Shown here piece after piece: positions 12,256-24,018 of a stretch of DNA of 52,801 nt. Made by a program: the position numbers and the translations under genes. The notes under the pieces were generated by a model that saw only the letters and a program-made list of their open reading frames with translations, did no database searches and had not been told where the DNA came from. The DNA is taken from NCBI GenBank assembly GCA_947389015.1, contig CANDVA010000020.1:1-52801 (forward strand), in the 5' to 3' direction. The number at the start of each line of letters is the position of its first letter. Within the stretch, counting starts at the first letter, position 1. Source of the stretch: an uncultured Clostridia bacterium (GTDB taxonomy: Bacteria; Bacillota; Clostridia; Oscillospirales; Ruminococcaceae).

Positions 12256-12284
12256 TTGACTTTTAACGGAAAATATTGTATAAT
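12256..12284 (+). promoter_or_regulatory. Promoter of the EAL-beta-solenoid gene
   Basis: TTGACT (12256-12261), 17-bp spacer, TATAAT (12279-12284). The long open frame running back into this promoter is therefore not all translated; the start must lie downstream of about 12291. Confidence 0.8.
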
Positions 12285-12387
12285 ATATTGTATTAAGGAA
12301 TTGAATCAAGTAATTCGGTTTATCTTTTCCGACGCAGTGCGCTGCAGCATTGCGTCATATTTATGGAGTCAAGGGAGATGTTCGACT

Positions 12388-14979
12388 GTGTCAGGTTTTG
12401 AGAACATGGGGTGGAAAGAAATCTTCGGCGAGGCATGGCCGAAAATAATAGAGTTTTGTCCCGATATCGGCGGCTTTCTGATAAGTCACGAAACGCGGCA
12501 GGTGTTTCTCGACGGCAATGCCCGCACACTCGCGGGCATGGACGACGTACCCGACTACGACAAAATGCTCGCGTTTCTGAACGGGCTGCCCGAGCATTAC
12601 GAAAACGGAACTCAGCTCTCCGCACAAATAGTTTCTTACAATGATAATAATCTGACCGCGGGCATACTTAAACGCAGCGATGATCTCCACGAGTGGCAGC
12701 GCAAGTCGATGCTGCCCGTCTGCGAGAACTCGCGGTTGGTGCTGGAGATCACGCAAAGTACCGCTCCGTCGCTGCTCGCACTTGTCGAGTTCGGCACAAA
12801 AAGTCAGCGCGAACCGACGAAATATCAGATATTCGACGCGCTTACAGCTTTGATTAAATATTCCCCAAAGGGCACACTTGTGTCCGTTCATTCGGCTAAT
12901 CGTTTCTGGCTGTATATACCTAATTTTATCGGAAAAGGCGTTGAGTACCTTGAGGAGCTGAGCAGGATAGTAAACGAGGAGACCGCCGAGGGCTTCTCCA
13001 AGGACAGGAGGATACAGTTCTCCGCGGGTATAGGTGAGGACAGCGCTCCGCTTGCCAAGAGAATGAGCACTGCCGAGTTCGCGCTGTACGAAGCGGGACT
13101 AAAGGGCATTGGATGTATAGTCGGCTACTCCGTCGAGCAGTATGAGAGCAATAAGGACGAATATGAAAAAATGAGCCGATTTTCAAGGCTTATCGGAGAT
13201 AACCTGTTTTTGTATCATTTTCAACCCATCGTCAGCGCGTACAACGGCGAGATAGTCGCGTATGAAATGCTTATGCGAAGCGATAGCAGCATAGGAATGT
13301 ACCCTCTTGAGATACTCGACTGCGCCGAAAAGGCACGGCGGCTTTACGATATCGAAAAGGCGACTATGAGCAACGCGCTTGACCTTATCGGAAAGCATCA
13401 GGATCTGCTGAAAAACCGCAAGCTGTTTGTAAATTCCATTACCGCGCATATGCTCACCGACCACGACTGGCATTCGCTTGAAGAGAAATACGGCGAGCTT
13501 ATGGAGAAAATGGTCATAGAGTTCACAGAGCAGACCGAAATCGACGACGAACAGCTGACGGCTATACACGAGCGCTTAGGGCGAAGGAACATCAAGCTCG
13601 CGGTCGACGACTACGGCACGGGCTATTCCAACACATCCAACCTTATCCGCTACAATCCCGACTACGTCAAGATAGATCGCGCTCTTATAGAGGGCATAAA
13701 CTCCAAGCCGAAGATTCGCAAGCTGGTATCGGGCATAATCGAATTTATTCACGCGAACGGCTATCAGGCGCTCGCGGAGGGCGTCGAGACTTACGGGGAG
13801 CTGCAAACGATGATACAGCTCGGCGCTGATCTTATCCAAGGCTACTACACCTCCAAGCCCAAGCCCGTTATGCTTCTGGAGATATCCGAAAATATAATCC
13901 GAGACATTGAAAATATCAACCTTGAAAGCTCGGGCAGTATTTCCCGCGCGTATCATCCCGCGGAGGGCGAAACGGTTGATCTGTGCATGATAAAAGCCGA
14001 CAATTACAGTTCGGTATTCGTGGAAACGCCAAACGTTACTCTAAAGGGAAGAAAAGACATTCTCCTCGATACGCTATTTGTTGTCAAGGATGGGATCAAA
14101 ACGAAGATCGTCCTCGACAGCGTGCGCGTTAAGACCGATAAGGACGCTCCAACAATAATGTTAGGAGTTAATTCGGAGGTGGAGATAGAAGCAGTCGGGA
14201 AAAACGAGTTGGACGGCAAGGGAATATATGTTCCGAAGTCCTCGTCAATCAATTTTTCGGGCGGCGGCGAGCTGAAGGTGATCTCAAACAGAGAAGATTG
14301 TTACGCTATCGGCACCGACAGCAAGGAGACTCCCGGCAATATCGTGATATCGATGAAGGGAACGATATTTGTTGAAGCAAACGGAGACAGCGTTGTCGCG
14401 ATAGGCGGTGGCAAAAACGACTGCTCCAATGTTATACGGCTTATCGGCGGCGACATTACAGTTGCCTGCTCGGGAAGAAAATGTATAGCAATAGGCATCG
14501 CCGACGGCGACAGCATTGTCGACGTTGAGAACTGTAATTGCACCATAACGATCAACTCGCCCGATTCGACGGGTATAGGCTCGTACAGCGGTACCGTCGA
14601 TCTGCAAATGAAGAATTTCCTTATGGATATAAGGTTGAGCGGTATCAATATAGCCTGCATAGGTACCCTCGAGAAAGGAACGGGCAGGATAATGATGCGT
14701 AGCGGCAATATCAGCTGCACCGCGAACGGACGCACGATAAACTGCATAGGGACGCGCAGCGGCAATACAAACTGCCGTGTCGGAAACTGTTTCGTAAAGA
14801 TCTATTGCGAGGGCGGCTCGGTATGCGGTATCGGCGACCTGTACGGCGACGGAGAGGTCTGCATTGAAGAGACCGAGATGATCTTCACGTTCCTCGCCGG
14901 AGAGGGCTTAGCTTACGGCAGCCGCAACGGTCAAGTGCAGACAAAGCAGTGCATAGAGCAGATCCGCATAAACGGATAA
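12388..14979 (+). CDS. c-di-GMP phosphodiesterase (EAL) with C-terminal beta-solenoid
   Basis: 863 aa from GTG at 12388, preceded by GGGAG 10 bases away. N-terminus: a PAS-like region (~1-120), then a degenerate GGDEF-like segment (~125-255) with no GG[DE]EF. EAL domain ~268-515: the signature Glu is in YEML (E293), with N349, E378, the DDYGTG pair D407/D408, K428, E465 and IQGYY, so the metal and catalytic set looks complete and c-di-GMP hydrolysis to pGpG is expected. From ~620 to the end there are about eight 28-36-residue repeats with a recurring [AC]IG or GIG step (YAIG, VAIG, IAIG, TGIG, ACIG, NCIG, CGIG), as in a right-handed beta-helix. No membrane segment is seen, so the solenoid is cytoplasmic and probably a binding scaffold. 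Confidence 0.9.
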   Translation: MSGFENMGWKEIFGEAWPKIIEFCPDIGGFLISHETRQVFLDGNARTLAGMDDVPDYDKMLAFLNGLPEHYENGTQLSAQIVSYNDNNLTAGILKRSDDLHEWQRKSMLPVCENSRLVLEITQSTAPSLLALVEFGTKSQREPTKYQIFDALTALIKYSPKGTLVSVHSANRFWLYIPNFIGKGVEYLEELSRIVNEETAEGFSKDRRIQFSAGIGEDSAPLAKRMSTAEFALYEAGLKGIGCIVGYSVEQYESNKDEYEKMSRFSRLIGDNLFLYHFQPIVSAYNGEIVAYEMLMRSDSSIGMYPLEILDCAEKARRLYDIEKATMSNALDLIGKHQDLLKNRKLFVNSITAHMLTDHDWHSLEEKYGELMEKMVIEFTEQTEIDDEQLTAIHERLGRRNIKLAVDDYGTGYSNTSNLIRYNPDYVKIDRALIEGINSKPKIRKLVSGIIEFIHANGYQALAEGVETYGELQTMIQLGADLIQGYYTSKPKPVMLLEISENIIRDIENINLESSGSISRAYHPAEGETVDLCMIKADNYSSVFVETPNVTLKGRKDILLDTLFVVKDGIKTKIVLDSVRVKTDKDAPTIMLGVNSEVEIEAVGKNELDGKGIYVPKSSSINFSGGGELKVISNREDCYAIGTDSKETPGNIVISMKGTIFVEANGDSVVAIGGGKNDCSNVIRLIGGDITVACSGRKCIAIGIADGDSIVDVENCNCTITINSPDSTGIGSYSGTVDLQMKNFLMDIRLSGINIACIGTLEKGTGRIMMRSGNISCTANGRTINCIGTRSGNTNCRVGNCFVKIYCEGGSVCGIGDLYGDGEVCIEETEMIFTFLAGEGLAYGSRNGQVQTKQCIEQIRING

Positions 14980-15040: not shown

Positions 15041-17563
15041 TCAGCCGAGAACTACCTCGACGGAATGCTCTCCTCCGTCGAATGCGGGAATAACGTTACC
15101 GTCAACGGGCTTGCCGTCGACTGTCATAGATTTGACGCCCGCGCATACGTGGTTCGGGTTGGATACGCTGATGTTGTATGTCGCGCCGCGGAACTGACGG
15201 GAAATCTTGAAGCCGTCCCATTCGTGCGGAATGGACGGATCGATCTGCAAACCGTTGTACTGCGGTTTAACGCCGAGGATATACTGCGAGATCGCAACGA
15301 AATTCCATGCCGCCGTACCAGTAAGCCATGAGTTTTTAGCCTCGCCGTGACGCTTGCCGTCCTTACCCGCGATCATCTGCGCGTATACGTACGGCTCTGT
15401 GCGATGCAGATCGCTAATCTCCTCGCGGAAAGCGGGAGCTATTTTGCTGTAATACTCAAACGCCTTGTCGCCGTGCCCTACGGCAGCCTCCGCGCAGATT
15501 ATCCACGCGTTGTTGTGACAGAACACGCCTGCGTTCTCCTTGTAGCCGCCCGGATAGGTTGATATTTCGCCGTATTCGATCTTATAGGTCGTGAATGCGG
15601 GATTGTTCAACACCAGACCGTGCTTGCTGTTGAGATACTTGTCAACGCTCTCGAGTGTCTTGACGTCGCAGCCCTTGTCCTTGCCGAGACCCGCGAGAAC
15701 ACACCAGCCCTGCGGCTCGATAAATATCTTGCCCTCTTCGCACTCGTGAGAGCCGACCTTGTTGCCGTTGTGATCGTAAGCGCGGAGGAACCATTCGCCG
15801 TCGTAGCCTTTTTCGACGGTAGCAGTGCGCATTTTCTCAATTTCCGCTTCTGCTCGCTTTGCCTCTGCCTCGTCGCCTTTAAGACGGCACATAGCCGCGT
15901 ACTCGGGACCGATAAAGCAGAACATACCCGCGATCATCACAGATTCCGCGTTCTGAGAATAGAACGGAGGATTCGGGAATATTTCCTTGTTGTTGTAGGT
16001 CTGGAAGCTCTCGCCGGGCTTATCGGAGAAGCAGGAGAGGTTAAGACAGTCGTTCCAGTCGGCACGACCAGAAAGCGGCAGACCGTGAGGTCCGATCTTG
16101 GTGCAGACGTGATTGAACGCGCGCTTGCAGTGGTCGAGCATGGTGTCCGCAAGCTCCGCCTTATTCTCGTAGGGAACTTTCTCGTCGAGAATGGAAACGT
16201 CGCCAGTCTCCTTAACGTATTGAGCAACAGCGAGTATCATCCACAGCGGGTCGTCGTTGAAGTTCGAGCCGAGCTCGTGATTGCCCATTTTGGTGAGCGG
16301 CTGATACTGATGATAAGCGCCGCCGTCTTCAAGCATAGTCGCCGCGAGGTCGATAAGACGCTCGCGCGCTCTTTCGGGTATCTGATGAACGAAGCCCAGA
16401 AGATCTTGGTTACTGTCACGGAAGCCCATTCCGCGTCCGATGCCGCTCTCGAAGTAGGAAGCGGAGCGCGACATATTGAACGTAACCATACACTGATACT
16501 GATTCCAGATGTTGACCATACGGTTGACCTTTTCGTCGGGAGAGTCAACGGTATACTGCGTGAGCAGCTTATCCCAGTAATTCTTCAGGCTCTCGAACAG
16601 CTTATCCGCCTTTTCGGGAGTGTTGCAGAGCTCGATCATCTCGAGCGCCTTTTTCTTGTTGATGACGTTCTTGAGTTCCTTTTTGCCGCCTACGCCGTCA
16701 ACGGTATACGAGGCGATAATGCCGTCGTAATTGCCGCTCTTGTCGAACTTTTCGTCAACGGGCATTTCAACATAGCCCAGACAGAAAACAAGCTCCTTGC
16801 TTTCGCCGGGGGCAAGCTCCAGCTCGATATAATGAGAAGCAATGGGCGACCAGCCCTCCGCAACGGAGTTATGCGGCTTACCCTCAAATACCGCGTCGGG
16901 ACGCTCGAAGCCGTTGTACAAACCGAGAAAGCTCTCGCGGTCGGTGTCGAAGCCCTGAACGGGAACGTTTACGGTATAGAACGCGAAGTGATCGCGGCGC
17001 TCTTTGTATTCGGTCTTATGATAGATCGTAGAGCCGACTATCTCGACCTCGCCTGTATTGTAGTTTCTCTGAAAATTTGTGGTATCGTCGTTAGCGTCCC
17101 ACAAGCACCACTCGAGGAAGCTCGTGAACTTGAGCGACTTCTTGTCATTGCTCTCGTTGGTGATGGTGACCTTCTGAACCTCGCCGTTGAAGTCCTGCGG
17201 AACGAAGAACTTCACGCTTGCCTTAACGCCGTTCTTTTTACCCGTGATGATCGTATAGCCCAGACCGTGGCGACACTCGTACTCGTCAAGCTCAGTCTTT
17301 ACGGGCGACCAGCCGGGATTCCACACGGTATCGCCGTCCTTGAGGTAGAAGTATCTTCCGCCCATGTCAACGGGGACGTTGTTGTAGCGGTAACGGGTGA
17401 TGCGGCGCAGACGCGCGTCCTTGTAAAAGCTGTACCCTCCCGCCGTATTGGAGATCAATGAGAAGAACCCTTGAGTTCCCAGATAGTTGATCCATGGATA
17501 CGGGGTACGTGGAGATGTGATGACATACTCCTTTGCCTTGTCGTCAAAATGCCCAAATTTCAT
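15041..17563 (-). CDS. Cellobiose phosphorylase, GH94
   Basis: 840 aa, about the length of Ruminococcus/Cellvibrio cellobiose phosphorylase. It cleaves cytosolic cellobiose with phosphate to glucose-1-phosphate and glucose, saving ATP. N-terminal super-beta-sandwich (~1-300, starting [18 protein letters not shown]), then an (alpha/alpha)6 barrel with [11 protein letters not shown] and [11 protein letters not shown], the latter carrying the proposed general-acid Asp (~residue 502), and a C-terminal jelly-roll (~760-840). The start at 17563 has AAAGGA upstream; the longer frame to 17635 overlaps the promoter. Intracellular: no signal peptide. Its regulation is probably by a LacI-family protein or CcpA through the operator at 17640-17653. 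Confidence 0.95.
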
Positions 17564-17606
17564 AAGATAAACCGTCCTTTCGGTAAGATTATTTTTACCT
17601 AGTTTA

Positions 17607-17653
17607 AGTATACAACAAATGAGAAAAAAATACAAGGTCTGAAAACGGTTACA
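17607..17653 (-). promoter_or_regulatory. Promoter and LacI/CcpA-type operator of the GH94 gene
   Basis: Minus strand TTGTAT (17630-17635), 17-bp spacer, TATACT (17607-17612). Immediately upstream of the -35 lies TGTAACCGTTTTCA (17640-17653), a dyad around a central CG that matches the catabolite-responsive-element pattern at all core positions except an outer W. A site just upstream of -35 may activate or repress. Confidence 0.65.
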
Positions 17654-18459: not shown

Positions 18460-19515
18460 TTACAGCATAGTTAAACATTCCTGCAGTAAATGAGACACTT
18501 GACGGTCTATTGTAAATAACTCTTGAAATAAGGATTTAAGTTCCGCTCTGGCAGATGAATTATTCAACAACTCAGCGATGTTTTTGGGTACACAAAAGAA
18601 AGTTTCCGATGAAACACCCAGAAGCGCCCAGATTTTCCATGCCTGATCATGGAAATGAAGATGTAAATCCGATGCATCCAAAAGTAATTCCTTACATTTA
18701 TTTTCGCCGACCATAGTTACCAAAGTGTTCCTGTAACATTCGGAGGCATGCCATCTGGTTTCTATGGCGAGACCATTTATTTGATTCAGCCATTTGCCGA
18801 GCTTTTGTCCGTCCGGTTCCGATTCTAATTTTTGATATACCTTTTGCTCCAGCTTATTCCTGCTGCCGGTATTTAAGTGCCGTATCATATGATCGAGAGA
18901 TTCGGACAAGGAGATCGTACTATTATATTTATCTGTTATGAAAACAATATTGCTGAGCTTATTATACCAATCCTTATCGGGCTGCGGCAACCTACGGTGT
19001 TTCATTAGATACGGAAGATTTTTTACATCATCGTATCCTGTTATCACCGCCCACAAATCGCCAAGACTTAATTTTATCAATACAGGCTGTTTGTTTTTTA
19101 TGGACTGCTTTATTCTTTCAAACAGAACATCTTCCTCTGTATCTTTGTTCATTGACTCATAGTGATAACCTGACGCGTATAAAGCCAAGGATAACCGATC
19201 AAGAGCGGTCTCCGAAAATTCGTCCGCCGAGTATGGCTTGTCGAACGAATTACCGATTTCTTTATCTATCCAAAAATATGCGCACCCTGTTATTGTGATC
19301 AAATATTGATATATTTTAAGGTGATGTTTATTGATAAAATGTTCGTTTCCGCAATCGCCGCATTTTATACAGCTGCGTTGATGCTTGCCACAGAAAAAGG
19401 GGGTGTCCTCCGTGTAGGCGTCCCGATATAAAAGAATAGAAGAAAGGGCGCCGAAAAATGAGTTCCTTTGCGCATTTACAGGAAAAGAAACTAAGTTTTC
19501 AATACTTTTTATCAT
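18460..19515 (-). CDS. BtrH/C39-like paralogue with CxxCGDC motif (351 aa)
   Basis: Related along its length to the protein at 22882-24018: both start with a short lead, then N-[SG]-F-x-x-AL-S-S, Y-T-[ED]-DTP, and a cysteine cluster (here SCIKCGDCG); both have a central domain with a WHA[SA]E motif and end with a similar WKIW…ELK.LF helix pair. The fold resembles proteins related to the BtrH N-terminal/C39-like peptidase group, but I cannot assign catalytic residues, so function is open. No signal peptide or membrane helix. The start overlaps the GNAT stop by 4 bases, making it the last gene of the MerR-GNAT operon. Confidence 0.7.
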   Translation of the reverse strand: MIKSIENLVSFPVNAQRNSFFGALSSILLYRDAYTEDTPFFCGKHQRSCIKCGDCGNEHFINKHHLKIYQYLITITGCAYFWIDKEIGNSFDKPYSADEFSETALDRLSLALYASGYHYESMNKDTEEDVLFERIKQSIKNKQPVLIKLSLGDLWAVITGYDDVKNLPYLMKHRRLPQPDKDWYNKLSNIVFITDKYNSTISLSESLDHMIRHLNTGSRNKLEQKVYQKLESEPDGQKLGKWLNQINGLAIETRWHASECYRNTLVTMVGENKCKELLLDASDLHLHFHDQAWKIWALLGVSSETFFCVPKNIAELLNNSSARAELKSLFQELFTIDRQVSHLLQECLTML

Positions 19516-20024
19516 TTGAATTCCTCCATGTGATTGATTGTTTTGCAGAGTTTGAATTGAGCCTCAAATCTGTCTCTGCCGCCTTCAACGCCAACTATAT
19601 GGAACCCGCATTTATTTGTGTAAAAACAGTGATTGCGGTAGGAGACAGCGGGAGTTTCCGCATACCATGTCTTAACCTTCGGATACATATGCTCCACAAA
19701 ACGCCATGTCGTGCTGCCATATCCATTGCCGCTCAGGTCGGTGTCAATAAAAATATTTCCAAGATAGCCTGAGCCTTGTTCCTCATGGATAAATAGTATG
19801 ATTGCGCCTATAGGTGTACCTCTAAGGTCAATGCGATATGATGTGGCTTCGGGATTAAATCCCCATTTCTCTAAAAAGCTGCCGTCATCGTAACCCGGCG
19901 GTCCGCCCGCGGTTTTTTGAAAAAACAGTTGCGAGTCGTTGTCGAAACAACGTTTCATAATGGGAGTCAGAAGCGGAATATCCTTTTTTACCATTGGTGT
20001 AAAGGTCAATTGTTCAAATTCCAT
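19512..20024 (-). CDS. GNAT family N-acetyltransferase
   Basis: 170 aa. The GNAT acetyl-CoA motif A appears as GYLGNIFIDTDLSGNGYGSTTWRF (the R/Q-x-x-G-x-G/A loop is here SGNGYG), followed by motif B around YRNHCFYTNKCGF. An N-terminal GGPPGYDDGSF insert resembles acetyltransferases that act on small amines or peptides; the acceptor is unknown. Cytosolic. GGAGG stands 7 bases before the start; the gene begins 5 bases after the MerR-fusion stop and overlaps the next gene by 4 bases, so the three are one operon. Confidence 0.88.
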   Translation of the reverse strand: MEFEQLTFTPMVKKDIPLLTPIMKRCFDNDSQLFFQKTAGGPPGYDDGSFLEKWGFNPEATSYRIDLRGTPIGAIILFIHEEQGSGYLGNIFIDTDLSGNGYGSTTWRFVEHMYPKVKTWYAETPAVSYRNHCFYTNKCGFHIVGVEGGRDRFEAQFKLCKTINHMEEFK

Positions 20025-20028
20025 TGTT

Positions 20029-22653
20029 TTACCTCCGTATGTTTTTATTCAGTATCTTTACAACCTCGTCGATAATATCACCGCATTCGCGAATTCTTGC
20101 GGCGATCTTTTCACGTCTCTCGGGATTTTGCAGCGTTTCAAGCGTTATATTGAAGCCGCCTCCGAGAGCTTCGAGATCGTTTTCGCCGTCGTTGTGCCAA
20201 ATATCAGCGGTGCGTTTGTACAAGAGACTGATGTCGTAAAGATATGTCATATCAGGATTTAAGTCGTTTGCGCGGTGTAAAAAATTAGGGCAGCAGCAGC
20301 CGTTTGTGGCAAGCACACAAACAAAATTGGTGTACATTGACCACAGGTCGAATTCCTCCGGTTTTATTTTCTCATAATACCCGCTTTCAATGTCATCCGC
20401 CCATTTGCGGAAGGCAGCTGCTCCAAAGCAATATTTTTCGTTGTCTGTTGTAAGAAGTTCCGGAAGCGCGTAAATTGCTTCACGGCAAATTTCCGCAATG
20501 TCTTTTTGTTCTTTTTTCTCACCAACAAATATCCAGCCGCTTTTATCGGTATCCTCGCCTACCGCTTTATCGCACGAAACGCGCTGAGGCTCGCTGTTAT
20601 TTCCCGAAATATATATAAGCGTTTTTCCGTATTCTTCATAACCGACAAACACACCGCAGGGTTGTTCCGAATGTCCTGTGGATATAACGGGAACTCCTTT
20701 GTCAATATAGGAGATAAGCATTTTCAGATACATTTCTTTATTTTTGCGAAGAACGCGGCTGAAAACATACGCGGCAGAATAACCGCACTTTTCAAAAACT
20801 CCCTCAAAGAAATTACCGTCACCGTTGACCTGATAGTGCGCATTCACTCCATCGCCGGCAAAGGGCTGTTTGTAATGCTGGGCAAATATATCTCCTGTAA
20901 GTCCTTCAAAAAAAAGATAATCAAACTCCTTTTCTCCAAGGCATTCCATTACATATCCTGCGCTCCCGTTAAACCAGTAATTTTCGCCGTATTCGTCTGT
21001 AATAAGACGATGAATAACGGGGATCAGGTTATTGCTTCGCCTTGTATTTACGGTAAGTTCCTGGTTCTTTATTTTTTTTGGCTGAGAATACGCAAGCTGT
21101 GATATACTGATTTTTCTGAAATATTTCATTCCCTGACCGCTCGAGCCGATAACGATAGGATATGCTTCTTCACGATTCAGGTCAAGGAACATATACGGAA
21201 AATTAATTCCGCAATATCGTATTTCACCGTTTATTATGACCGCCAAATGCTTTTGTCCGACGATCCATGTGACATGATTATATTCGTTCGGCTTGATACG
21301 ACCTCTGCTCGGGAAATTATAAAGGTCGTGAAAAATCGGCTGATGAAAGCTGATTGCTTCTTCCCGACAGCTCGAATGGTTATTCGTATTGATACCGAAA
21401 TCCATAATTTTCAGATTTACTCCGCTGTTATAGCTGTCGGAACCGTGATAAAAAACAATACTGCTTTCGCTGTCACCGTAGCCGAACTGCTCGTCGTCCA
21501 TCGGTACGCGGAAATCTATATCCACTCTGAACGGCAGCTTTACAGACACGTTTGTATTAAGCGTCCGCGTGGAGATCCAGCCTGTATATTCGGCTTCGCC
21601 GTTGTCAAGTACTCGGTAATGAGGGTCGTTGATAGTCGTAATTTTATCAAGTGCGACATCCTTTTCCCACAATATCGGATTTTGACTGTTGATCTCATCT
21701 TCCGTGATATTCGTGATCTCGACAGGTCTTGGATAAAGCGTTGCGTCCGGAATTCTTTTTTTTACCGGAACATATAACGCAACAAGCTGTCTGCGTTCAT
21801 CGGGAGAGATGAGATTTTCTGTCATGGCGGCATGGCGCAGACTGCCGTCGGCTGCGTAATCTATTTGATAAAATTTATTTTCGTCAAAGCTTTTTATCAA
21901 AGCGTGAAACGACTGGTTCATATCGTCATCAAGATATAAATTTGCCGCGGCAAACAAACCTCCGTCAAAAATAAAATCCGAAAAATCGCTGTCGTTTACA
22001 AAGTCATCGTCAATTCTTGAGATCATAACGTCGTTTTCGTATTCTCGATACTCAAAGCTTTCGTGATAATCTGCTTTCAAACTGTTCATCTGAATATGAC
22101 GTGAAAAGGCGTCGGTGTCAGAGTTTTGCGGATCAGTCTTAAGGTATGAGGACAACACGCGCATTTTCGGCAGCTTTACAATGGAAATATCAAGAGGCCG
22201 CGCAAGCCTTTCCGATACTTCGGAAAGCTGTTCCATACCGACGCTTTCCCGCACGGTGAGCTGCTTGTCCATTTCCTCGTACAAAAGAGGCAGAGCGGAG
22301 ATATGCTTGATGCCCTTTTCGATCATTTTATTCAAAAAATCGTTAATAATGCGTTTAAGTTCAGACAGAGCCGTGACCTCGCGGTCTATTTCACTTAGCC
22401 TGTCCACAAAAACCTGTGTGATGTCCGACGTTTCACGGCTGTCGTAAATTCTTACAATGTCTTTTATCGGTATCTGCATTTTGCGAAGTACCATGATCTG
22501 CCGCAGCCTCTGTACATTCTGCTCATCATAATAGCGGTATTTTTCAAACTGCGGGCGAACGCTTGTGATAAGCCCCGCTTCCTCGTAATAACGCAGTGTT
22601 CTTGACGATAATCCGAGCTGAGTGCTTAGGTCGGTTATTTTGATTAAACTCAT
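20029..22653 (-). CDS. Giant MerR-type regulator fused to GyrI-like, lectin-like and BtrH/C39-like domains
   Basis: 874 aa from ATG at 22653 (GGAGAGG upstream); ordinary MerR proteins are 120-280 aa. Residues ~1-70: MerR winged helix (ITDLSTQLGLSSRTLRYYEEAGL, arm YRYYDEQNVQRLRQI). ~80-125: dimerisation coiled coil. ~140-290: GyrI/AraC-effector-like domain ending VALYVPVKKR. ~300-500: beta-rich segment like a concanavalin/LamG jelly roll (WISTRTLNTNVSVKLPFRVDIDF…). ~520-874: a domain with YWFNGSAGYVME, FDYLFFEGLTGD, CGVFVGYEEYG and CFGAAAFRKWADDIE, related to BtrH/C39-like proteins, including the two stand-alone relatives nearby. No membrane segment. Probably senses a ligand and activates the 19-bp-spacer promoter at 24087-24117. 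Domain names beyond MerR are inference. Confidence 0.82.
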   Translation of the reverse strand: MSLIKITDLSTQLGLSSRTLRYYEEAGLITSVRPQFEKYRYYDEQNVQRLRQIMVLRKMQIPIKDIVRIYDSRETSDITQVFVDRLSEIDREVTALSELKRIINDFLNKMIEKGIKHISALPLLYEEMDKQLTVRESVGMEQLSEVSERLARPLDISIVKLPKMRVLSSYLKTDPQNSDTDAFSRHIQMNSLKADYHESFEYREYENDVMISRIDDDFVNDSDFSDFIFDGGLFAAANLYLDDDMNQSFHALIKSFDENKFYQIDYAADGSLRHAAMTENLISPDERRQLVALYVPVKKRIPDATLYPRPVEITNITEDEINSQNPILWEKDVALDKITTINDPHYRVLDNGEAEYTGWISTRTLNTNVSVKLPFRVDIDFRVPMDDEQFGYGDSESSIVFYHGSDSYNSGVNLKIMDFGINTNNHSSCREEAISFHQPIFHDLYNFPSRGRIKPNEYNHVTWIVGQKHLAVIINGEIRYCGINFPYMFLDLNREEAYPIVIGSSGQGMKYFRKISISQLAYSQPKKIKNQELTVNTRRSNNLIPVIHRLITDEYGENYWFNGSAGYVMECLGEKEFDYLFFEGLTGDIFAQHYKQPFAGDGVNAHYQVNGDGNFFEGVFEKCGYSAAYVFSRVLRKNKEMYLKMLISYIDKGVPVISTGHSEQPCGVFVGYEEYGKTLIYISGNNSEPQRVSCDKAVGEDTDKSGWIFVGEKKEQKDIAEICREAIYALPELLTTDNEKYCFGAAAFRKWADDIESGYYEKIKPEEFDLWSMYTNFVCVLATNGCCCPNFLHRANDLNPDMTYLYDISLLYKRTADIWHNDGENDLEALGGGFNITLETLQNPERREKIAARIRECGDIIDEVVKILNKNIRR

Positions 22654-22676
22654 ACCTGCCTCTCCTTTCTGTAAAC

Positions 22677-22705
22677 AGTATATCACTTAATGTTATAAAA
22701 GTCAA
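22677..22705 (-). promoter_or_regulatory. Promoter of the MerR-fusion operon
   Basis: Minus strand TTGACT (22700-22705), 17-bp spacer, TATACT (22677-22682). The spacer (TTTATAACATTAAGTGA) resembles that of the promoter at 24087-24117 but is two bases shorter, as expected if the same regulator recognises both yet only the longer one needs untwisting. Confidence 0.65.
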
Positions 22706-22881
22706 GGGACGACTTCCGTATGGTCGCCTGTCGTTATAAAGCCGCCTATTTTTAAAATAAATAATTACCATTCATTATATACAAGCCGCAAATGTTAAAA
22801 AAACAAATATTTGCGGCTTTATTTGCGGCTTTACGTATAAAACGTCGGTGCTTTTAGGTGTTTCGAACTTTAATAAATATG

Positions 22882-24018
22882 TTAATTGCGTACAGCGTTC
22901 AAAATTTCCAGAATCCCACCGGCAACCGCGCGGTCGTTGCCAAATACGATTTTAAACAGCCGCTTCAGCTCGTTCTGCACATCTGAGTGCTGAATCAACT
23001 TGAATGACTCCTCCGTGGGGAGATATCCGGTCTGTGGTCCAACATTCAGGCAAGACCAGATTTTCCAGCCTATCCCGTGAGTTTCGTTGTTTCCCTCTGC
23101 GCTATAACGCTTGAAAAACAGATCTGCCAGTTTTTCAGCCGCGGCTTTCAGTTTGTTTGATTCCGCCGAATCAACAAGTGAATACAAAAGATTATCCTTT
23201 GACGTAAATGCTTCCGCCGCGTGCCACCTTGCTTCGATCGGAACGCCGTTTATCCCCATAAGCTTGTACGACAGCATTACAGCGTTTTCGGGCGTAACAT
23301 TTGACAAATCGGACATAATTTCATTCTCCAAGGCGTCGTGCGAGGGATCGCTCAGCACGGCGTATATCCGTTTGAGTATGTCAAAATAAATCTGCTTGCA
23401 AGCTGCACTGTTTGTACGGTCAACTTCACCTGTTATAACAATGATATCCTCATATGCTCCGCTTGTCTCATCGTTCACCTCGCCGCCGTAATTCATAACG
23501 GTGATACCGTCGTTCGTGTATCCGCATACAATCTTCCAGCATGAGACCCACGCCGTTTCATCCGTATATACATTGTGATTTGCCGCCATCGCAGGGTATC
23601 CCGCGTCGATTGAATCTTTTATGATCTCGCGGATCTCTGCAATGGTTTTGTTTTTGAAGCGAATGAACGAAAGTCCCGCAAAACCCATGATATCCGCCAT
23701 AAAACCGTCGTCCCAGCGCCAGCCGACCGGGGTATCGGGAATCGTGTGTGCGCCAACGCTGTCGTCCTCGGGATAATCAAATCCAAACGCCAATCCCGAC
23801 ACGGTGAGCAGGCAATGATAGACGCTTGACTGTGTCTTGCCAAGAGACTGTCCGGTGCAGTCGCCGCATTTTTTGCAGTAGCAGTCTTTTGACGTATACC
23901 AGTAGGGGGTATCGTCGGTGTATTTTTTTGCAGCGCATACCACACTTGACAAAGCCGCGATGAATCCGTTGGATTCTGCGTCGTGTGGGAACGGGTGGGT
24001 GGTAAGTTGTTTTTTCAT
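22882..24018 (-). CDS. BtrH/C39-like paralogue with CxxCGDC motif (378 aa)
   Basis: Paralogue of the 351-aa protein at 18460-19515 and related to the C-terminal part of the MerR fusion. N-terminus: NGFIAALSSVVCAA, YTDDTPYWY, then CYCKKCGDC, a likely metal-binding cysteine cluster. Central: IMGFAGLSF, a HNVYTDETAWVSCWKIVCGY stretch (candidate Cys/His region) and NYGGE. C-terminal: IEARWHAAEAF and GIGWKIWSCLN. No signal peptide. GGAG lies 7-8 bases before the start. It is transcribed separately from the operon to its left, from a MerR-type promoter. Function unknown; a peptidase, acyltransferase or ligand-binding role are all possible. Confidence 0.72.
   Translation of the reverse strand: MKKQLTTHPFPHDAESNGFIAALSSVVCAAKKYTDDTPYWYTSKDCYCKKCGDCTGQSLGKTQSSVYHCLLTVSGLAFGFDYPEDDSVGAHTIPDTPVGWRWDDGFMADIMGFAGLSFIRFKNKTIAEIREIIKDSIDAGYPAMAANHNVYTDETAWVSCWKIVCGYTNDGITVMNYGGEVNDETSGAYEDIIVITGEVDRTNSAACKQIYFDILKRIYAVLSDPSHDALENEIMSDLSNVTPENAVMLSYKLMGINGVPIEARWHAAEAFTSKDNLLYSLVDSAESNKLKAAAEKLADLFFKRYSAEGNNETHGIGWKIWSCLNVGPQTGYLPTEESFKLIQHSDVQNELKRLFKIVFGNDRAVAGGILEILNAVRN

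Follow-up and report, generated by a model that had tools for sequence, protein, structure and literature searches.

The TipAL/TipAS pair of Streptomyces is described as a minimal autoregulated resistance system of the MerR family that uses two start codons and a cysteine that traps the drug covalently (PMC7762955). TipAL/TipAS and AlbA, as reported, join a MerR helix-turn-helix (HTH) to a drug-binding effector domain, are autoregulated, and also make the effector alone. BmrR, BrlR, and EcmrR, whose chains span about 250–277 residues, consist of an HTH and a GyrI-like fold; EcmrR is reported to use a promoter logic built on a 19-bp spacer (PMC8113463). P0001, a MerR-type regulator encoded in the 52,801 nucleotides of uncultured Clostridia DNA analyzed here (the window), shares the HTH and GyrI-like fold with these three proteins, and its predicted operator, which lies before P0003 in the window, has a 19-bp spacer as with EcmrR, but it is some 575 residues longer, in two further domains. 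Compared with TipAL/TipAS, its effector is not TipAS but a stack of GyrI-like, jelly-roll, and BtrH-like folds; its short product is a prediction, and in the window clade a separate gene takes the place of that product. Because the TipAS domain (PF07739) is absent from Pfam matches of P0001 at E ≤ 1, the protein would work like TipA but is not classed as a TipA protein. From the domains, kinship, operator-like sites and their positions, and internal start signals computed here, we infer with a probability of about one half that P0001 is an autoregulated, ligand-responsive MerR activator with a disarmed binding module, the free form of which soaks up ligand.

The first-pass annotation had proposed an 874-residue MerR protein with stacked domains, a reading that we confirm, with the gene on the minus strand (Table 1). 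The MerR HTH scores 54.9 bits against a Pfam cut-off of 21.6, and no other Pfam family exceeds its cut-off in P0001. NCBIfam yielded no match to the C-terminal domain, and PDB profile searches with the C-terminal, jelly-roll, and P0003 alignments returned nothing usable (best E 0.45–1.1). The AlphaFold model and fold comparison resolved P0001 into four domains rather than one continuous known domain: the HTH, the GyrI-like effector domain characteristic of the BmrR-like MerR family, a lectin-like jelly roll, and the C-terminal domain. The annotation's GyrI-like, jelly-roll-like, and BtrH/C39-like segments were correctly assigned. Structures similar to the jelly roll include CBM66, lectins, and enzymes acting on 3-keto-glycosides; the Foldseek lists contain lectins, lyases, and some toxin lectin-like domains, to all of which only the ConA-like fold is common (PDB 1oq1 is YesU). 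The ligand of P0001 is most likely an antibiotic-like natural product, as the BtrH-type fold and the GyrI-like domain suggest, and the jelly roll points to a sugar part within it.

Table 1 Features of the P0001 locus, in window positions
Feature	Position	Strand	Basis or remark
P0002, stand-alone protein of 351 aa related to the C-terminal domain	18460..19515	-	4-bp overlap with P0004
P0004, GNAT acetyltransferase	19512..20024	-	begins 4 bp past P0001
P0001, MerR-type regulator, 874 aa	20029..22653	-	ORF call and full-length relatives
C-terminal BtrH/CtaG/CcbD-like domain, residues 545-874	20032..21021	-	Ser564 at nucleophile position
Disordered linker, residues 526-539	21037..21078	-	pLDDT <50
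Jelly-roll (ConA/LamG-like) domain, residues 316-523	21085..21708	-	AlphaFold and fold comparison
GyrI-like domain, residues 152-300	21754..22200	-	AlphaFold and fold comparison
MerR HTH and linker/dimerisation helix, residues 1-125	22279..22653	-	Pfam MerR_1 5-70; helices in model
P0001 own promoter-like sequence	22677..22705	-	17-bp spacer, degraded dyad
Possible terminator or attenuator hairpin in the P0003–P0001 intergenic region	22783..22819	-	RNA fold
P0003, stand-alone protein of 378 aa related to the C-terminal domain	22882..24018	-	CxxCGxC motif
Predicted MerR-type promoter/operator of P0003	24087..24117	-	TTGACT, 19-bp spacer holding 15-bp dyad, TATACT

Fold comparison of the model revealed that the C-terminal domain has the whole fold of CtaG, CcbD, and one chain of the AziU2/U3 complex, a papain-like fold with a helical C-terminal part. 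CtaG, which acts in closthioamide assembly, CcbD, the AziU2/U3 complex, and BtrH_N are grouped here as BtrH-type enzymes. Identity of the P0001 domain to this group is 7–10%. Neither of two related Pfam families matches the window domain; BtrH_N reaches 1 of 27 members at E 0.02, and Peptidase_C39_2 reaches 8 of 27 at E ≤ 1 (best 0.0039). The catalytic positions were surveyed in 67 aligned rows (11 of the P0003 type and 56 others), which are not all independent because the window gene is represented by overlapping fetches and a few rows are fragments; L101 is unaligned there. The nucleophile column of the 56 rows holds Cys in 26, Ser in 15, Ala in 5, Val in 4, Gly in 1, Glu in 1, and a gap in 4; the window residue is Ser, not Cys. 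A His lies no more than 8 residues before the conserved GY in three of these rows (L021, L104, and L024), none stands near the usual place in the other 53, and L021 alone combines Cys with a nearby His. P0003-type rows have Ala in seven cases and a gap in four, with no Cys where the column is covered; three of the 11 have a His at another spacing, each without a Cys in the nucleophile column.

The Ser in place of Cys in the window and the lack of a nearby His in 53 of the 56 rows make sensing likelier than catalysis. The C-terminal domain most likely serves to bind ligand, its amide-synthase fold of the BtrH/CtaG type having been disarmed; unlike CtaG, CcbD, AziU2/U3, and BtrH_N, it does not keep the catalytic Cys and His and is fused to DNA-binding domains. 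It is very improbable that this domain and P0003 are active enzymes (amide synthase or peptidase) that modify the ligand with another set of residues. Such an enzyme would fit the whole-domain fold of CtaG and CcbD, the Cys of 26 rows, the Cys and His of L021, and the displaced His of three P0003-type rows, but it is opposed by Ser564, by the 53 rows without His, and by the reported reliance of CcbD on a Cys-His-Glu set (PMC12945683). The suggestion in the first-pass annotation that a cytoplasmic factor with an enzyme-like fold senses its ligand directly therefore fits, whereas its alternative of ligand processing is disfavored, as the catalytic residues are not kept. Inactive families that act in transcription networks, such as eukaryotic menin, appear in a classification of papain-like proteinases in which the term helix-turn-helix does not occur (PMC10318531).

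The kinship that had been proposed between the C-terminal domain and two stand-alone neighbors holds, P0003 and P0002 being distant relatives (approximately 25% identical to each other); the accompanying structural match is weak for P0003. Its model (pLDDT 77, from 10 sequences) has an AziU2/U3 complex chain as the first PDB match (E 3.1e-3); PCAT1, a peptidase-containing transporter, comes after it with E values of 0.08 and worse. P0003-type proteins carry the CxxCGxC motif. The block of operator, P0003, and P0001 is a conserved unit with 82–84% nucleotide identity to the window in L004, L006, L007, and L009, and the sequences that flank it vary among relatives. P0003 is present in five of the six window-clade members; in the exception, L005, the operator directly adjoins P0001, and P0002 and P0004 are present. 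P0001 lies 38 bp after P0003 in L006. RNA folding of the entire stretch 22654–22881 gave a z of −2.88, and the hairpin within it may put cotranscription of P0003 and P0001 in doubt.

Other genes were observed around these proteins. A complete GH94 (cellobiose-phosphorylase-like) gene (15041–17635) lies downstream of the cassette in the window. The window also encodes a 907-residue EAL-domain protein (12256–14979); its C-terminal part, beginning near residue 540, is matched by no Pfam family at E 0.01 and looks repetitive by eye. One P0003 relative lies near GlcNAc-2-epimerase-type and Gfo/Idh/MocA-type genes. In L062 (202–2610), a P0003-type domain is joined to an apparent (by eye) SGNH hydrolase and a further domain, next to an MFS transporter gene; the protein has no Pfam match at E 0.01. 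GyrI-like genes recur as neighbors: a Cass2/GyrI-type gene adjoins the long MerR in L010 (by Pfam), as does a relative of it in L018, L032 has a weak GyrI-profile match beside its long MerR, and a GyrI-like gene just under the cut-off adjoins a P0003 relative.

Alignment of upstream regions revealed the sequence TTGACTTTGACGTAACGTCAAGTGGTATACT before P0003, comprising a −35 element, a 19-bp spacer with a dyad, and a −10 element, almost invariant in all five aligned sequences (the window included). This site and its counterparts in relatives conform to the promoter expected of BmrR-like MerR regulators, with a dyad in a spacer of 19–20 bp. The operator before P0003 is the single match in the window when up to three mismatches are allowed, and 100 shuffles gave none. 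Elsewhere in the same genome, two matches lie at a short MerR paralogue and one, with three mismatches, at another MerR gene. A relaxed pattern with at most one mismatch was then applied to 23 genomes with long MerRs (those of L015, L017, L027, and L028 were left out). It gave 37 matches against one for the reversed pattern, numbers that show position and scarcity rather than independent discovery since the pattern was drawn from the same genes. Twenty-six of the matches stand shortly before one of two genes, the long MerR or, within the window clade, P0003: 21 precede a long MerR, 6–207 bp from the first start codon counted (including L026, whose gene is split into two ORFs), and five precede a P0003-type gene (window, L004, L006, L007, and L009). 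One match stands before a decayed window-type gene (L108), six before other MerR genes, two before non-MerR genes (L102 and L112), and the remaining two are at a contig end (L100) and at G000:C1:23167. Similar sites before other MerR genes indicate that the operator is not specific to the P0001-type regulator.

Three further loci have operator-like sites. G000:C1:23167 marks one such site, the second of its kind close to the short MerR paralogue L002. L108 (3141–4303), already counted above, is a decayed window-type P0001/P0003 cassette, the operator-like site of which still fits the pattern. L106 (2193–3356) encodes, behind a similar operator, a MerR protein with a methyltransferase part apparent by eye.

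In the window, the promoter-like sequence of P0001 itself no longer contains the 19-bp operator; its spacer measures 17 bp in the window and L009 and 18 bp in L007. These positions are consistent with a model in which a ligand binds the GyrI-like, lectin-like, or C-terminal domain of P0001, and the ligand-bound dimer would twist the 19-bp-spacer promoter into a usable form. P0001 would switch on chiefly its own transcription unit, which means the regulator itself in most relatives and P0003 in the window clade. They also bear on a different proposal, that P0001 detects a carbohydrate with its lectin-like domain and regulates sugar utilization, the adjacent GH94 gene being a possible target. 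The resemblances of the jelly roll, the GH94 gene, and the sugar-related genes near a P0003 relative would accord with it; nevertheless, the sole operator match in the window precedes P0003, the other matches in the genome are at MerR genes, and the flanks of the conserved block differ among relatives, which leaves this proposal improbable. Because the GH94 gene has no operator, we rejected a carbohydrate regulon as the main reading.

Many relatives of the autoregulated activator that we favor may also yield a second product. An internal start site at the boundary of the C-terminal domain was noticed first by inspection and tested afterwards. An exploratory scan of 23 long MerRs found a Shine-Dalgarno sequence and start codon exactly at the beginning of the domain in 11; away from that point it detected four sites, distributed over three genes. 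A start codon occurs at the boundary in 20 of 27 long MerRs (19 of 26, plus L025), and in 19 of them the Shine-Dalgarno duplex energy averages −7.95 against −1.7 at 462 other internal ATGs. The boundary start beats every other internal ATG of its gene in 14 of these 19 (GTG and TTG were not compared). Signals are weaker in L010, L020, and L029 (about −5) and in L025 (−4.1), and L032 has a GTG at the boundary without a Shine-Dalgarno sequence. The window, five close relatives, and L021 lack the boundary start; window codon 535 (21049–21051) reads GTA, a position at which the majority of other lineages carry ATG or GTG in frame.

Codon alignment revealed that the signal persists while its reading frame and the encoded residues vary, for example as AAA GGA GAA, AAG GAG GAA, AAA GAA GGA, or AAG GAG AAC, each followed by ATG at a similar distance. 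Synonymous-codon shuffles average −5.9 against the observed −7.95, with a borderline combined p of 0.056, so that protein constraint could explain part of the signal. It is conceivable, if rather unlikely, that the signals are by-products of the linker amino acids (often Gly-Glu-Leu-x-Met), that the fused protein is the sole product, and that P0001 is large but otherwise an ordinary autoregulated MerR sensor. The near-equal strength of the shuffles in many genes and the absence of the signal from the window clade, L021, and some fusions described below are in keeping with such an origin; its survival across frames and residues, its excess over other internal ATGs, and its presence in AraC and WYL fusions are not.

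The C-terminal domain also occurs behind other DNA-binding domains. One profile matched 18 of 398 phylum genomes at E 1e-4 (the window's included), and a second matched 10 of 391 class genomes at E 1e-15. The domain is C-terminal to an AraC HTH in L116, L118, L120, and L122 and is fused to a WYL regulator in L130; stand-alone domain proteins were also found, three of them (L126, L127, and L128) beside genes that are AraC-like by eye. The second profile added AraC fusions with HTH_18 above the cut-off (L140, L141, L142, and L144), and L143 and L145 were counted with them by similarity. L149, L150, and L134 (526–727 residues) carry the domain behind a Cro/CI (HTH_3)-type start, assigned by Pfam for L150 and by 37% (L149) and 57% (L134) identity to it for the others. 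Further AraC or WYL fusions were not found in the small genome groups searched. No Pfam or NCBIfam family exceeded its cut-off in the domain region of the ten proteins scanned; by these sequence comparisons, the C-terminal domain is an unnamed sensor-domain family without a model in the libraries searched. Rob-type AraC regulators combine an N-terminal AraC HTH with a GyrI-like domain. Their HTH part resembles that of the AraC fusions, below family cut-offs, and the second domain of the fusions is BtrH-like, not GyrI-like.

Sixteen fusion genes were scored on all ATG, GTG, and TTG codons, the boundary being defined as the stretch from 75 residues ahead of the domain start to 15 residues past it. 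The strongest start signal of the gene lies at the boundary in nine of ten AraC fusions, the single WYL fusion, and none of three HTH_3-type fusions, the exceptions being L122 and L134, L149, and L150; boundary candidates make up 15–27% of all start candidates in the AraC and WYL genes. These and the other counts are not independent since the sequences are related: the ten AraC fusion genes represent six lineages at 70% identity, five of which are positive. Six genes (L116, L118, L120, L122, L130, and L134) were inspected before the boundary rule was fixed; among those that were not (L140–L145, L149, and L150), six of six AraC fusions and zero of two HTH_3-type fusions are positive. Two rows fall outside these counts: the boundary start is second best in L151, a long MerR, and the best start is not at the boundary in L115, an acetyltransferase-like fusion. 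The start signals suggest dual products, as with TipAL/TipAS, in most MerR and AraC fusions. Many other members of the P0001 family would probably also make the free C-terminal domain from the internal start, and in the window clade P0003, as a separate gene under the operator, would supply the free module in its place. The free or stand-alone module may soak up ligand as TipAS does beside TipAL. The operator, the probable autoregulation, the reappearance of the domain with other kinds of regulator, and the putative internal start extend beyond the first reading of the locus.

A pattern-based search of one genome per species recovered relatives of P0001 at 25 loci, most of them full length, in answer to the survey of homologues that had been proposed. 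The window's own genome has one full copy. Matches at E 1e-20 were found in 22 of 391 class-sample genomes, near-full-length copies in five (G000, G012, G049, G084 twice, and G201); the others are short MerRs or, in G011, a fragment. Four of 41 genomes of the genus match, with the long form in the window's genome only. In a tree of 51 rows built from the first 330 residues (L017, L028, and one stand-alone row omitted), the 26 long proteins all fall on one side of a single branch (support 99/99; none of 500 shuffles as low), in keeping with a single origin. The records that contain the nearest relatives (80–85%) bear the titles Lachnospiraceae, Oscillospiraceae, or uncultured bacterium; together with the absence from sampled genus mates, this pattern suggests that P0001 may have spread horizontally. 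Carriage on plasmids or phages was rejected, as no record in the collections searched holds 80% of P0001; the plasmid matches listed (20 of 55) and one phage record cover 12–14%, and other mobile elements are possible. Searches of viral contigs confirmed no relative of the C-terminal domain. A role in anti-phage defence was also rejected, PADLOC returning a single HTH match for P0001 and nothing else better than E 0.003. In a separate observation, the long MerR of L010 (5983–9135) ends in an additional C-terminal segment, the counterpart of which in L029 (3497–4015; 78% identical over 169 residues) is encoded downstream as a gene of its own.

Literature searches for MerR with BtrH, MerR with GyrI-like and LamG domains, and peptidase C39 with AraC returned no description of this architecture, and none of the literature matches listed shows the dual-product pattern beyond TipA and AlbA. 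It is tempting to propose, though only tentatively, that a disarmed antibiotic-biosynthesis fold serves Bacillota as a general detachable sensor in MerR, AraC, WYL, and Cro/CI regulators, with an internal start in three of the four families. A single gene would then give both the switch and a free sequestering domain, and so an inducible protection, encoded by one gene, against natural products of the amide or aminoglycoside type. Should the dual-product layout of TipA indeed return in MerR, AraC, and WYL regulators, built there on another domain, it would represent a general design. The fold ties these sensors to enzymes of natural-product assembly, CcbD for lincosamides and CtaG for closthioamide, and this kinship suggests the first ligands to try; if the proposal is true, a sensor family without a library model would become testable.
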